The notes under the pieces were generated by a model that saw only the letters and a program-made list of their open reading frames with translations, made no database searches and was not told the DNA's origin. Below, one piece after another: positions 29,414 through 35,977 of a stretch of 58,456 bases of DNA. Origin of the DNA: Opitutia bacterium. Its GTDB lineage: Bacteria > Verrucomicrobiota > Verrucomicrobiia > Opitutales > T3Sed10-336. The stretch's first letter is position 1. The number at the start of each line of letters is the position of its first letter. The stretch is taken from contig PWMU01000154.1 in assembly GCA_003558065.1 (NCBI GenBank), positions 1 through 58,456 on the forward strand, given 5' to 3'. The translations under genes were made by a program, and so were the position numbers.

Positions 29414-30814
29414 ATGTCCGAAAACCAATTTGATGTAATCGTCGTAGGAGCCGGCCCGGGAGGCTACGTTTCGGCCATCCGGGCCGCGCAGCTCGGCCTC
29501 AAGACCGCCCTGGTGGAGAAGCGCAAAACCCTTGGCGGCACGTGTCTCAATATCGGGTGCATCCCCAGCAAGGCCCTGCTTCATTCCACGGAGATTTTTC
29601 ATTTTCTGCAGGAGAAAGGCGCCGAGCACGGCATCAAAACGGGATCCGTCAAAATCGATGTTCCCGCACTCATGAAGAAAAAGGACGCCGTCGTCAGCAA
29701 TCTCGTCAAAGGCGTGGGCACCCTCGTATCAAAGAAAGGCGTCACCGTCTTCAACGGATCCGGACGCCTAAACGACACCCATACTGTGGAAGTCGACGGG
29801 GACAAGAAGACAACCCTGACCGCAAAGAATATTATCCTGGCAACCGGTTCGGCCGTCATTGAGATTCCTTCGCTGAAGATCGACGGCAAAACCATCGTCA
29901 CCAGTGATCATGCCATCGCTTTCGATTCGGTTCCGAAGAAACTCGTCGTGGTCGGGGGCGGGGCGATCGGTCTGGAACTGGGAGCCGTGTGGGCGCGCCT
30001 GGGGAGCGACGTTACCATTATTGAATTCCTTCCGCGGATCGCACCAACATTCGACACTGACATTTCCAGAACGGCCGAGCGAATTTTCAAGAAGCAGGGG
30101 CTCAAGTTTGAAACCGGCACCAAAGTCACCGGGCTCAAGAAGCAGAAGTCGAAGACGATCGTTGTGGCTGATAAGGACGGGACGGAGAAGCAATTCGAGG
30201 CCGACAAAGTGCTGGTGGCGGTCGGACGCAGGCCGTACACCGAAGGGCTCGGTCTGGAGGAAGTCGGGGTCGAACTCGACGAGCGGAATCGCATCAAAAC
30301 TGACGAATACCTGCGTACGAGTATTAAGAATATCTACGCTGTCGGAGACATCATTGCCGGTCCGATGCTGGCCCACAAGGCCGAGGAAGAAGGCGTCGCC
30401 GCTGCGGAAATCATCGCGGGAAAGCCAGGGCATGTTAATTACGACGTCATACCCAACGTCATTTACACCGATCCCGAAATTGTCAGTGCGGGAATGGGCG
30501 AGGACGAAGCCAAAGAGAAAAAGATAAAGATCACTATCGGGAAGTTCCCGCTCTCCGCGAACGGACGCGCCCTGGCCATGGATGCGACGGAAGGTATGGT
30601 TAAAGTCATCGCCTCGGCCGAGAACGACCGGGTCCTGGGCGTCCAGATTATCGGCAGGAACGCGTCGGAATTTGTCGCCGGCGCTGTCGCCCACATGGAG
30701 TACGGCGGAAGCGCCGAAGACATCGCCCGCACCGTCCATGCCCATCCGACGGTTTCAGAATCGGTCAAAGAAGCCGCACTTGCCGTGGACAAGCGGGCCC
30801 TTCACTCGCTTTGA
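29414..30814 (+). CDS. lpd: dihydrolipoamide dehydrogenase (E3)
   Basis: This 466-residue FAD enzyme reoxidises lipoyl groups of 2-oxoacid dehydrogenases. It shows the FAD motif [18 protein letters not shown] (GxGxxG, 12-17), the redox disulfide C44-C49 in [13 protein letters not shown], an NAD-binding Rossmann motif [19 protein letters not shown], the FAD motif [19 protein letters not shown] and the C-terminal active-site [13 protein letters not shown]. It is downstream of sucA-sucB in the same direction, so the whole complex is encoded together. A repeat array occupies its immediate leader. Confidence 0.97.
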
Positions 30815-31118: not shown

Positions 31119-31261
31119 GACGAACCGGCTTGAATACACAAAGCCGCGCCTGAAATACCTTTTCGAGTCAGCCCCAGCCAGGCCGAATGGCACGGTTAAG
31201 GCGCGACTCCGCGGTCGAAACCGCCCCAACACCGCAACCAAGAGCTAAAAACCAAGCCAAT

Positions 31262-31327
31262 CCGTGGCGACCGGGTTTATCCCGGGAGAGCCCAAACGGA
31301 CGACCGGGGAAAACCAGGTCGCCACGG
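31262..31327. repeat. 24-bp inverted repeat, hairpin element
   Basis: The arm at 31262-31285 (begins CCGTGGCGACCGGG, ends TCCCGG) pairs with 31304-31327 (begins CCGGGGAAAACC, ends GTCGCCACGG) at about 21 of 24 positions around an 18-base loop. It has no T-run, so it looks more like a palindromic repeat than a terminator. Confidence 0.75.
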
Positions 31328-31377
31328 CAGTTGGGATTCGAACGGCAAGGCGCTCAACCGAGTGCCATTCCTTTCAC

Positions 31378-31405
31378 GAGTCTGTCGACGAAGCCCGACA
31401 GACTC
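31378..31405 (-). terminator. perfect hairpin after H1-like gene (palindromic element, copy 2)
   Basis: GAGTCTGTCG (31378-31387) and CGACAGACTC (31396-31405) form a perfect 10-bp stem with loop ACGAAGCC. It abuts the stop codon of the minus-strand H1-like gene. The sequence is shared with 23101-23119 and related to 56928-56973, so it is a dispersed element placed at 3' ends. It may act as an RNA 3'-end stabiliser or terminator. Confidence 0.75.
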
Positions 31406-31966
31406 CTAGCGCCCCGTCAACCCAAGTCGCTTCTTCACATTGTGTACGGTGGAAGGGGATACCCCGAATTTGCCCGCCACCTCCTTGCCGGTCATTTTGG
31501 CATCAAAGGCTTTCCTCATCTCCTCGACCATGCTTTCGGTCAGCTCCGCACGCGAGCGACGTTTCCTGGCGGGAGTCTTCTTTTTCGACGCTGTCTTAAC
31601 GCTTCCCTTACGGGCGGCTGTCTTCTTCTTGCCGGCGACCTTTTTTCCGGCCGTGGTTTTCTTCTTGGTTGCTCTCTTCTTCCTGCCCGCGGTTTTCTTT
31701 TTACTTGCCGCTTTCTTCTTACGCGCGCCGGTTTTCTTTTTGGCCGCGGCCCTGCCCAATACTTTCTTGCGCAACGCAGGGCTTCCGTACTCGGCGAGCT
31801 CACGGATCAATTCATCGACACTATCCAGTCCCGCCTGTTTCGGCAGGCTCTTAAGGGTGCCTGCTCTTGCCTGCTTCTGTTCTTCCAACCTGGACAGTTC
31901 CGATTGAAGGGCTCGAATCGCTTCGGATTCACTTTCGTATTTCTTTCCTAGTGTTCTTATAGCCAT
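31406..31966 (-). CDS. histone H1-like lysine-rich protein with C-terminal HTH
   Basis: This 186-residue protein has three parts. Residues 1-70 are helical, with a coiled-coil-like segment (SEAIRALQSELSRLEEQKQARAG) and a helix DSVDELIRELAEYGSPALRKKVLG. Residues about 72-138 are an Ala/Lys/Thr-rich tail of repeated KKK, AGKK and ARKK units like eukaryotic histone H1 tails. Residues 139-186 (ELTESMVEEMRKAFDAKMTGKEVAGKFGVSPSTVHNVKKRLGL) resemble a helix-turn-helix with the turn at FGVSPSTVHNV. It likely compacts or bridges DNA in the nucleoid; the HTH suggests some sequence preference. No operon partner. An AT-rich dyad lies in its promoter region and a hairpin follows its stop codon. Confidence 0.85.
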   Translation of the reverse strand: MAIRTLGKKYESESEAIRALQSELSRLEEQKQARAGTLKSLPKQAGLDSVDELIRELAEYGSPALRKKVLGRAAAKKKTGARKKKAASKKKTAGRKKRATKKKTTAGKKVAGKKKTAARKGSVKTASKKKTPARKRRSRAELTESMVEEMRKAFDAKMTGKEVAGKFGVSPSTVHNVKKRLGLTGR

Positions 31967-31989: not shown

Positions 31990-32076
31990 AAGTATCCCCA
32001 CATGGGTTACAAGCTCCAATTACTAATTGAATGTTATTTGATGATTTGTCCAGTACATAACATTATGTGGATACTT
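31990..32076. promoter_or_regulatory. AT-rich dyad upstream of H1-like gene
   Basis: AAGTATCCCCACAT (31990-32003) is an inverted match of ATGTGGATACTT (32065-32076) except for a two-base bulge. Inside it ACATAA (32055-32060) and TTATGT (32063-32068) form another small palindrome. TGTGGATAC (32066-32074) matches the complement of the DnaA box TTATCCACA at 8 of 9 positions. It lies 24-110 bases upstream of the H1-like start, so it may be its operator. Confidence 0.45.
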
Positions 32077-32676: not shown

Positions 32677-32763
32677 CTCGGTTAAGCTCAGAGTTGAACG
32701 CGCTTCGAGCGTGTTGTCTCAGGCCAAAAGCCTAAGCTACTTCGATCCAGCGCCTTAACCGAG
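32677..32763 (+). ncRNA. possible structured RNA closed by a 10-bp inverted repeat
   Basis: CTCGGTTAAG (32677-32686) and CTTAACCGAG (32754-32763) are exact inverted copies enclosing two smaller hairpins (ACGCGC-TTCGA-GCGTGT near 32696, AGGC-CAAAA-GCCT near 32721). An alternative outer pairing is GGGCGCT (32668-32674) with AGCGCCT (32749-32755), which is tRNA-acceptor-like. However, no proper T-arm can be drawn, so it is not a normal tRNA. Strand and function are unknown. Confidence 0.3.
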
Positions 32764-32886
32764 CCCCGTTCAACCAGACCCATATAAAACAGCGAAGGGG
32801 AAGATTTCTGGAATCCCGGCTTGCCATGAGGTTTTTTTTCTGTTCGTTTGTCTTCCCGGCAAACTGTAAATCGAGGAGACCACGCA

Positions 32887-33120: not shown

Positions 33121-35409
33121 GTGAACACCACATCCACTGAACGTAACCAGGAAATTGTCCGGCGCTACACCGGACAACCCGCGGCGATGCCGCCCGAGGT
33201 ACGCCGACGCATCGAAGATGCCTGGGGTGGCGGGCCGGTACAGCTCTATGCCCTGGCCGACCTCGACCACACGCTGAACCTTTCCCAGGACTGGGTTGCC
33301 CTGGGCCCGGAGCACTTCGCCATCCACCGGCTGTCAAACAATCCCGGAAGCGAGCCTCGGCTTACCATTGTCCGGCTTGCGAACGTGCGCGAGGTGAAGG
33401 AGGTGCCCGGTCTTACCTGTACCAAGGTCATCCTGAGCGGACAACCCGGGGAGCCGGCTTTGGCCGAGTTCCGTTACTCCCAGCGGCAAAGCCGAGCCGT
33501 GGGGGCGCTTCTCTACGTTCTTCGCCAGCGAATTGAAGGCAAGTCCGCCGAACACGACGGAGCCGACAGGATTTACGCGGAAGGCGTCGCAAAACCCATC
33601 CGCGAGGCGCAGGCCAGCGTCGCCTCGAACCGCGCGGCGATTGTGTGGCGCCTGCTGGGCTACCTGAAGCCCTACCGGACTCAGGTGGCGCTGGGAATGC
33701 TGGCGGCGACTGTGATGACCGTCGTCGGACTGGTTCCCCCCTACCTGACCGGGTACATCATCGACACGGTCATTCGCCCTTTCCAGGACGGCGAACTCTC
33801 CGAAGAAGCGGCGCTCAAGACGGCCCTGGTGATCATTGCCGGCCTTGCCGCCGTGTTTGTAACACGGGAAGCGATGACCTGGGTGCGCTTGAGAAAGATG
33901 GCGGTACTGGGCGAACATGTCGCCCGCGATCTTCGCAACGACCTTTACGATCATTTGCACAAACTCAGCGTCAGCTACTTCTCTTCGAAGCAGACCGGAA
34001 GCATCATCAGCCGCGTAAGCTCGGACACCGACCGGATCTGGGACTTTATTGCGTTCGGAGTGGTGGAAGTTTCCCTGTCATTGCTTATGTTGATCGGTCT
34101 CGGCTGTGTGCTGATCTATCTCGATTGGCAGCTTGGGTTGCTCATGACGCTTCCGGTTCCGGTCATGCTTTACATGATCTACCGGAACGGCCGCGGCATG
34201 CAGCGGATGTTCCTGCGCGCCTGGAGAAAATGGTCGAACCTGACCGATGTTCTTTCGGATACCATTCCTGGAATCCGTGTCGTCAAGGCATTCAACCAGG
34301 AAACCTATGAAAAGGAACGTTTCGGCCGGCGCAACGCCACAGTGACGGACGAATTTTTCCGGATTCACCATCGCTGGACCGCGTTCTGGCCCTTTCTCCT
34401 GCTCTTCGTTCACTCGATGACCGTGGCGGTCTGGTTCTTCGCCCTGCCGCGGATCGTGGGAGCGGATCCGACACTGACGGCGGGTACCTTCGTGTCGTTT
34501 CTGCTTTACCTGGGAATGTTCTTCCAGCCCATCGAGGTATTCGGACAGATGTCGCGGATGGTCAACCGCTCGATCAGTTCTGCCCACCGGATATTCGAGG
34601 TCCTCGACACCGAACCCGATCTGACGGATGTCAAGACGCCGGTGCAGCTCGACCGGATCGAGGGCAAGGTCGATTTCGAGAACGTCACTTTTTCCTACGA
34701 TCCCGTACGTCCGGTACTCAAGGGCATATCCTTCCGGGTCAAACCCGGGGAAATGGTCGGACTGGTGGGGCCTTCGGGGTCCGGGAAGACGACAATCATC
34801 AATTTGGCGGCGCGCTTCTACGATCCAACCGGCGGACGGATTATGGTGGACGGACACGATCTGCGCGAGGTCGATTCCGGCGCTTACCGGCAACAGATCG
34901 GCATGGTGTTACAGGATCCTTACCTGTTCCACGGCAGCATCCTGGAGAACATTCGCTATGGCATGCAGACCGCTTCGATTGAGAACGCGGTCGAAGCCGC
35001 GCAGGCGGCCAATGCTCACGACTTTATCTGCAAGCTCTCCCATGGATACGACACGATCGTGGGAGAACGCGGCCACACGCTTTCGGGAGGAGAACGCCAG
35101 CGTATTTCGATCGCCCGTGCGATCCTCCACAATCCGCGCATCCTTATCCTCGACGAAGCGACCAGCAGCGTCGATACTGAAACCGAACGCAAAATCCAGG
35201 AGGCGCTCGATCGGCTCGTGACAGGCCGTACGGTATTTGCGATCGCTCACCGGCTCTCAACCCTCACGCGGGCCTCACGTCTCTTTGTCATCAAGGAAGG
35301 ACGCCTGGTTGAACAGGGCACCCATTCCGAGCTTCTGGAAAAGACGGACGGGGTCTATCGCAAGCTTCACGATATGCAGCGAGAGTTGCACGAAATGTAT
35401 GCGGTATAA
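33121..35409 (+). CDS. ABC exporter, fused permease and ATPase (cyanophycin-associated type)
   Basis: This 762-residue half-transporter begins with GTG. Residues 1-165 are a soluble N-terminal domain (LYALADLDHTLNLSQDWVALGPEHFAIHRL) absent from MsbA-like proteins. Six transmembrane helices follow (about 185-465), then the ATPase domain with Walker A GPSGSGKTT (K556), signature LSGGERQR, Walker B ILILDEATSSVD and switch IAHRLS. It probably works as a homodimer. The following DUF1854 gene, 55 bases on, is the partner that defines the ABC/DUF1854 pair annotated elsewhere as cyanophycin-metabolism-associated. The substrate is unknown, and no cyanophycin gene is in this window. Confidence 0.88.
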   Translation: MNTTSTERNQEIVRRYTGQPAAMPPEVRRRIEDAWGGGPVQLYALADLDHTLNLSQDWVALGPEHFAIHRLSNNPGSEPRLTIVRLANVREVKEVPGLTCTKVILSGQPGEPALAEFRYSQRQSRAVGALLYVLRQRIEGKSAEHDGADRIYAEGVAKPIREAQASVASNRAAIVWRLLGYLKPYRTQVALGMLAATVMTVVGLVPPYLTGYIIDTVIRPFQDGELSEEAALKTALVIIAGLAAVFVTREAMTWVRLRKMAVLGEHVARDLRNDLYDHLHKLSVSYFSSKQTGSIISRVSSDTDRIWDFIAFGVVEVSLSLLMLIGLGCVLIYLDWQLGLLMTLPVPVMLYMIYRNGRGMQRMFLRAWRKWSNLTDVLSDTIPGIRVVKAFNQETYEKERFGRRNATVTDEFFRIHHRWTAFWPFLLLFVHSMTVAVWFFALPRIVGADPTLTAGTFVSFLLYLGMFFQPIEVFGQMSRMVNRSISSAHRIFEVLDTEPDLTDVKTPVQLDRIEGKVDFENVTFSYDPVRPVLKGISFRVKPGEMVGLVGPSGSGKTTIINLAARFYDPTGGRIMVDGHDLREVDSGAYRQQIGMVLQDPYLFHGSILENIRYGMQTASIENAVEAAQAANAHDFICKLSHGYDTIVGERGHTLSGGERQRISIARAILHNPRILILDEATSSVDTETERKIQEALDRLVTGRTVFAIAHRLSTLTRASRLFVIKEGRLVEQGTHSELLEKTDGVYRKLHDMQRELHEMYAV

Positions 35410-35464
35410 GGAAATACAGCCCGGTTGCACAACCCCGACCCTGCAGTACGATCTCTGATACGCC

Positions 35465-35977
35465 ATGTCCCAACAAGCATCCACTCACAACTCCGACGCC
35501 GCCTTTCAGCCCGAAGGCCTGTCGTTCCGTCTTCGACGCGACAGCGCCGGGACGGTATGGCTGGACCGCAATGGAACCTCCACGCGTGTCCACCTTCACC
35601 TGTGTTTTCCATGGACAGAACCGCAGCGGTTTCTTTCATTGCGCGACGAAGACAAGAACGAACTCGCCCTGATCAAGGATCCCGACGAACTGGACGCGGA
35701 TTCCCGGGCGGCATTGGAAAAGCTTACCGAAGAATCCCGTTTCGTGTTTCCCATCACCGGTATTGAATCGGCCGATCCCGACTTCGAACTTCGCGTCTGG
35801 AAAGTCCGGACGCAAGGCGGCCCCCGTCAGTTCCAGACCAAACTGGACGACTGGCCGCGCCCGTTGCCGGATGGAAGCCTCCTGCTGCGGGACATCTCCG
35901 GCGACCTCTATCATATCAAAGACCCCGACGCGCTCGACCCGAAAAGCCGCCGTATCCTTTGGGCGTTTATGGATTAG
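35465..35977 (+). CDS. DUF1854 family protein
   Basis: This 170-residue soluble protein carries the DUF1854 features: FPWTEPQRFLSLRDEDKNELALIKDPDELD early, FVFPITGIESADPDFELRVWKVRTQGG in the middle, and LLLRDISGDLYHIKDPDALD at the end. The paired KDPDxLD motifs suggest an internal repeat. It directly follows the ABC exporter and is most likely its accessory or regulatory partner. The molecular function of DUF1854 is not known. It is convergent with the nuclease/phosphatase lipoprotein gene, with a GC-rich imperfect hairpin region in the 114-base gap. Confidence 0.85.
   Translation: MSQQASTHNSDAAFQPEGLSFRLRRDSAGTVWLDRNGTSTRVHLHLCFPWTEPQRFLSLRDEDKNELALIKDPDELDADSRAALEKLTEESRFVFPITGIESADPDFELRVWKVRTQGGPRQFQTKLDDWPRPLPDGSLLLRDISGDLYHIKDPDALDPKSRRILWAFMD

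Follow-up and report, generated by a model that had tools for sequence, protein, structure and literature searches.

What does a bacterial protein do that carries, on a single chain, both a histone H1-like arm and a domain expected to read DNA sequence? The question is raised by a gene for a protein of 186 amino acids in a 58,456-nucleotide stretch of DNA (contig PWMU01000154.1, here called the window) from an Opitutia bacterium. The organism is placed in the GTDB family T3Sed10-336, which is now the Verruconatronumaceae, a soda-lake lineage (PMC13274419).

The gene and the parts of its protein

The gene is a minus-strand open reading frame that runs from an ATG at 31966 to a stop codon at 31406-31408 (Table 1). 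It had been annotated from the sequence of the window and is exactly placed, and four orthologues together with purifying selection on the N-terminal domain and the helix-turn-helix (HTH) show it to be real. The orthologues, 60-69% identical, are found in four related genomes of the same GTDB-level family; beyond them lie tens of shorter relatives. In pairwise NG86 comparisons of the window gene with its orthologues, the N-domain and HTH have a dN of about 0.11-0.38 and a dS that is above 1.3 or saturated, and both are under purifying selection. The linker evolves faster (dN 0.41-0.57 in the same pairs), with its composition kept. A search of the window's own genome for a second copy of the gene found no paralogue.

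Table 1. Features of the gene and its surroundings, in window coordinates
Feature	Position	Strand	Basis or remarks
lpdA-like gene	29414-30814		591 bp from the open reading frame
Dispersed repeat, downstream of the gene	31184..31293		Pieces at some 30 other genome places, mostly of 31264-31292
Perfect hairpin of 10 bp, immediately following the stop codon	31378..31405		Dispersed repeat (31371-31405), about nine partial copies elsewhere
Gene for the coiled coil / basic linker / HTH protein, 186 aa	31406..31966	-	Open reading frame, orthologues, purifying selection
Trihelical HTH, residues 139-183	31418..31552	-	HTH_23 profile, AlphaFold2, VIA-align
Predicted recognition helix, residues 171-180, STVHNVKKRL region	31427..31456	-	Alignment, model
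H1-like Lys/Ala/Thr linker, residues 73-138	31553..31750	-	AlphaFold2, charge count
Short helix, residues 50-60, after the conserved 'GLDSVDELI' turn	31787..31819	-	AlphaFold2, weak H-NS alignment
Long helix, residues 13-44, predicted coiled coil	31835..31930	-	AlphaFold2, mean pLDDT about 92-96
Weak dyad upstream of the gene	31990..32076		Sequence; arms 31990-32003 / 32065-32076, 2-nt bulge
CAATTA, tentative -10-like element, 17 nt downstream of TGGACA	32024..32029	-	Read from the sequence
TGGACA, -35-like element at -86 from the ATG	32047..32052	-	Orthologue comparison
Dispersed repeat with inverted-repeat ends, divergent upstream gap	32677..32772		About 30 other copies
ABC transporter gene, 762 aa, divergent	33121-35409		1,154 bp from the open reading frame

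The N-terminus had been described as acidic and helical, of which the second half stands. Its long helix shows a heptad pattern (I17, L20, L24, L27, L38 and L41), and the best hydrophobic period in the N-domain helix is 3.5 (shuffle p = 0.019). The coiled coil predicted for residues 13-44 would provide for self-association. A third helix is placed by AlphaFold2 at residues 63-70. The domain is, however, near neutral, with a net charge of -1 over 59 residues (-4 over residues 45-60).

The segment first read as an H1-like tail is indeed rich in lysine and alanine, but it forms an internal linker ahead of the HTH. Its 66 residues include no acidic residue and carry a net charge of +32; in the comparison with H-NS-like proteins, the linker of the window protein is given a net charge of +36. 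From about residue 95 the Lys/Ala/Thr arm has low pLDDT and is predicted by AlphaFold2 to be mostly disordered.

The HTH-like character proposed for the last 45 residues is backed by profile matches in relatives and by a confident trihelical model. The Pfam profile HTH_23 (PF13384) matches 30 of 31 aligned family members, with a best E of 3.4e-7; the window protein itself scores E = 1.5e-4 and 21.9 bits, under the curated cut-off of 24.6. Structure prediction had been named as the check that could overturn this claim, and AlphaFold2 gives an HTH at the C-terminus, with helices at 144-155, 160-167 and 171-180 and a mean pLDDT of about 95 over 144-180, a model that supports the domain independently of the HTH_23 score. 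The predicted recognition helix is strongly conserved across the family alignment. The presence of a sequence-reading domain and an H1-like arm on one chain, as proposed in the initial annotation, is thus backed by the homologues, by the selection on the domains and by the confident model of the HTH; the targeting of compaction that the annotation suggested from it is a possibility.

The nearest solved fold of this HTH is the DNA-binding domain of GcrA (VIA-align Z 6.6, rmsd 1.4, 48 residues), which the model of a short relative also resembles (Z 8.0, rmsd 1.6, 48 residues). After GcrA come the HTHs of Tc3, Hin, resolvase and paired domains, with IstA also among the matches. Most of what VIA-align covered is the HTH, so that the fold of the N-domain was barely probed, and, according to the guidance for that method, the GcrA-like fold may be just a common arrangement. 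Foldseek against the PDB gave no match at E <= 0.001. Membership of the GcrA family was rejected on profile score, the full-length profile (PF07750) giving 10.5 bits against a cut-off of 26.9, and the likeness is confined to the HTH fold. In Caulobacter GcrA the DNA-binding domain is N-terminal, whereas the HTH of the window protein is C-terminal. The C-terminal ending, 'RLGL(S/T)GR', is similar to that of GcrA.

An Opitutales family with a basic linker

Profiles built from the window protein and its orthologues find relatives in 102 of 223 Opitutales genomes, many of the matches being weak and restricted to the HTH; elsewhere in the phylum the matches are few and weak. Named matches belong to the Opitutaceae and other Opitutales (Geminisphaera, Ereboglobus, Cephaloticoccus and 'Didemnitutus'), and one relative comes from the window's own family (G004:C364). 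A clear member, L081, lies on a contig labelled Elusimicrobia GWA2_66_18, the result either of lateral transfer or of wrong binning.

The same order of parts is found in the 107 members that were parsed: a coiled coil, the motif 'LPxxYGFxSxxxFIxAL', a basic linker and the HTH. The linker is basic in essentially every member, with a mean charge of +9.2 over the 107, and an AT-hook-like RGR/GRP core occurs in 22 of them. Linker lengths span 13 to 79 residues across the family, and most members have short ones, usually of 20-26 residues (median 23). The five members of the window clade, with linkers of 58-79 residues, have about threefold the family length, and a FastTree tree of the N-domain and HTH recovers them as monophyletic (support 1.0).

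Lys/Ala-rich sequence has also arisen in other branches, where it is placed as a tail after the HTH (L007, L032, L033 and L034). A distant relative, L201 (G052:C9:30100-30900), has between its coiled coil and its HTH a long linker of Ala, Lys, Arg and Val that seems to have expanded independently. In view of these tails and the L201 linker, the best interpretation of the H1-like arm is that a basic linker was already present and was elaborated repeatedly. And because the H1-like part is in the window clade a lineage-specific expansion of the linker of a wider family, the natural comparison is with H-NS-like and not with H1-like proteins. A second coiled-coil and HTH paralogue, with a longer and less basic middle part, is present as L198 in genome G001 and as L199 in genome G002; no paralogue of this type was detected in the window's genome.

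Surroundings of the gene

The gene is, as first described, isolated in a repeat-rich gap, being separated from its neighbours by 591 bp and 1,154 bp with repeat families inside. The neighbours are, from a reading of their translations, presumably an lpdA-like gene and an ABC transporter, and the transporter is followed by a DUF1854 protein (together 33121-35977). In the sister genome G001, too, this ABC transporter lies beside the orthologue (L061), and apart from this no conserved neighbour gene was found among the relatives.

Two of the three dispersed repeat families in the gap have hairpin-forming ends. A dyad that had been noted in front of the gene is present, but it falls below a shuffled-sequence null and is unconserved in the orthologues; the strong dyads (31262-31327 and 31378-31405) sit 3' of the gene. 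A link between the protein and the palindromic repeats, also suggested initially, finds no favour here: the dispersed repeats occur across the genome, with copies at tens of other loci, and those strong ones that neighbour the gene are on its 3' side. The flanking palindromes were accordingly rejected as a likely binding target. The gap gave no Rfam match up to E 0.5, which led to the rejection of a known RNA element there, and a phage origin was rejected since no match was found among 50,697 phage records.

The repeats around the gene, together with Hin, resolvase, IstA and Tc3 among the fold matches, could suggest a mobile-element DNA-binding module, such as an IS accessory or resolvase-like HTH, that binds dispersed intergenic repeats. 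We regard such an origin as very improbable, given one chromosomal copy in the genome, the spread of the family across the Opitutales, the want of any phage match and no sign of repeats accompanying the gene elsewhere.

All five long-linker orthologues carry TGGAC[A/G] between -81 and -88 from the start, within upstream DNA that is otherwise poorly alignable. From its conservation and position it is most simply taken as a -35 promoter element; a generic sigma-70 scan found no promoter upstream of the gene.

In several orthologues a palindrome precedes the start by 20-70 nt; such palindromes may point to autoregulation, and they bear on the main rival explanation, a conventional dimeric regulator. 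On that account the protein would be an ordinary site-specific transcription factor, whose coiled-coil dimer sets two HTHs on a palindromic operator while the arm speeds the search and raises affinity. The strong conservation of the HTH and its recognition helix suits such a regulator equally well, and the nearest folds, those of GcrA, Hin, resolvases and others, belong to site-specific proteins. The palindromes, however, differ in sequence between species, with only that of G003 exceeding the shuffled null, no neighbouring target gene is conserved, and a disordered linker of 60-80 residues is long for rigid dimer spacing. We consider this explanation rather unlikely, though it is the strongest of the alternatives.

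Comparison with H1-like proteins

AlgP/PhaF, HctB (of the HC2 family) and the Burkholderia H1-like proteins share with the window protein a long, disordered Lys/Ala-rich segment. In those proteins the arm is a terminal tail with no HTH described, whereas here it is an internal linker joined to an HTH. The likeness in sequence is weak: the Histone H1-like HC2 profile (PF07382) gives E = 0.05 and 14.1 bits against a cut-off of 40, on which score HC2 membership was rejected, and the Burkholderia H1-like profile NF038053 gives E = 0.008 and 16.4 bits against 80.

Such matches would suit a protein that, like AlgP/PhaF or the chlamydial HctB, serves as a lysine-rich tether or in compaction, with its arm on the DNA and its coiled coil on polyphosphate granules or partner proteins. 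There is a precedent in AlgP, in which a helical N-domain and a KPAA tail serve to position granules on the nucleoid (PMC9239181). A tethering role is nevertheless improbable, since both profile scores are far under their curated cut-offs, AlgP/PhaF and HctB have no described HTH, and the HTH is here constrained and present also in relatives that lack the long arm.

Comparison with H-NS and Rok

H-NS, MvaT and Lsr2 have almost no sequence similarity, yet all combine N-terminal oligomerization, a basic linker and a C-terminal DNA-binding domain, and the same domain order is found in Rok of Bacillus (PMC6936261). The window protein resembles the H-NS family (PF00816; enterobacterial H-NS and the Burkholderia Bv3F type) in its helical, coiled-coil N-region, its short helix, its flexible basic linker and its C-terminal DNA-binding domain. 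The linker, with its low pLDDT and net positive charge, is flexible and basic as in H-NS, MvaT and Lsr2. In contrast to H-NS, an HTH occupies the place of Histone_HNS, and the charge asymmetry of H-NS is just partly matched, in that the N-domains are not acidic on average (mean net charge +1.7 over the family; zero or below in 41 of 107). Rok likewise has a predicted coiled-coil N-domain, a linker and a helical C-terminal DNA-binding domain (PMC6936261), but its linker is neutral and Q-rich and its winged helix reads the minor groove, whereas the window protein has a strongly basic linker and a plain trihelical HTH.

In profile comparisons by hhalign, the family aligns in register with beta-proteobacterial H-NS at a probability of 28% and with gamma-proteobacterial H-NS at 18%, both below significance. 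The beta-proteobacterial set consists of database proteins only, gathered with an approximate consensus query, and its match extends over the coiled coil into the beginning of the 'GLDSVDELI' motif; the gamma-proteobacterial match weakly pairs the short helix with the site-2 motif of H-NS. Sixty column shuffles of the beta-proteobacterial set reach at most 1.2%, but as such shuffling also destroys the heptad pattern, the match of the N-domain to H-NS is suggestive only. Coiled coils, moreover, match each other easily, which weakens the likeness. Membership of the H-NS family was rejected on profile scores, as PF00816 is not among the listed matches, either of the window protein (to E 5) or of 31 members (to E 0.1).

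Canonical H-NS gave no match over the cut-off in 45 Opitutales genomes, including the window's own, while an E. coli control was positive. With no detectable canonical H-NS, the architectural role appears to be left vacant. The window's genome has three copies of HU.

A proposed role in the nucleoid

On balance, we favor a nucleoid-associated or global-regulator DNA-binding protein built on the H-NS/Rok plan. This reading is preferred because the layout is kept throughout the parsed members, with a basic linker in essentially every one and HTH_23 in nearly all of those aligned; because helix, disorder and HTH are confidently modeled in turn, with a heptad period in the first; because canonical H-NS went undetected in the 45 genomes and the hhalign match is in register; and because the gene is free-standing, without a conserved partner outside the sister genome, and has a conserved promoter-like element. 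The short linkers of most family members count against it.

Under the H-NS/Rok plan, the N-terminal coiled coil and the short 'VGLxSxDELI' helix would form a dimer or oligomer. The Lys/Ala arm, to judge by its charge and by H1-like tails, would grip the DNA backbone without sequence preference and hold the chain on the DNA, while the C-terminal HTH, whose predicted fold is like that of GcrA and Hin, would dock at preferred sites and nucleate binding. Multivalent binding of this kind may then coat or bridge DNA, such that loci are repressed or organized. The roughly threefold longer linker of the window clade would add non-specific affinity and reach, which could perhaps be of use to haloalkaliphiles, since electrostatic binding is weakened by salt.

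A bolder reading, which we hold tentatively as a possibility, is that the Opitutales family represents undescribed H-NS-type silencers and bridgers of the Verrucomicrobiota, in which a sequence-reading HTH replaces the minor-groove reader. In the soda-lake clade the linker would have become an H1-like arm, so that one chain would combine specific targeting with compaction in the manner of H1.

Significance

Our searches of the open-access literature, which extended to nucleoid proteins of the Opitutales and Verrucomicrobia, yielded no description of a dedicated nucleoid organizer in the Opitutales, whether H-NS-like or not, and nothing on the present family. Tests may be possible, as the same GTDB family includes a described and cultured relative, Verruconatronum alginivorum (PMC13274419). 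If the proposal is true, the Opitutales family would be another solution to the problem of organizing the nucleoid, and its series of linkers, from 13 to 79 residues, would offer a way to measure the share of the basic arm in searching, coating and bridging DNA.
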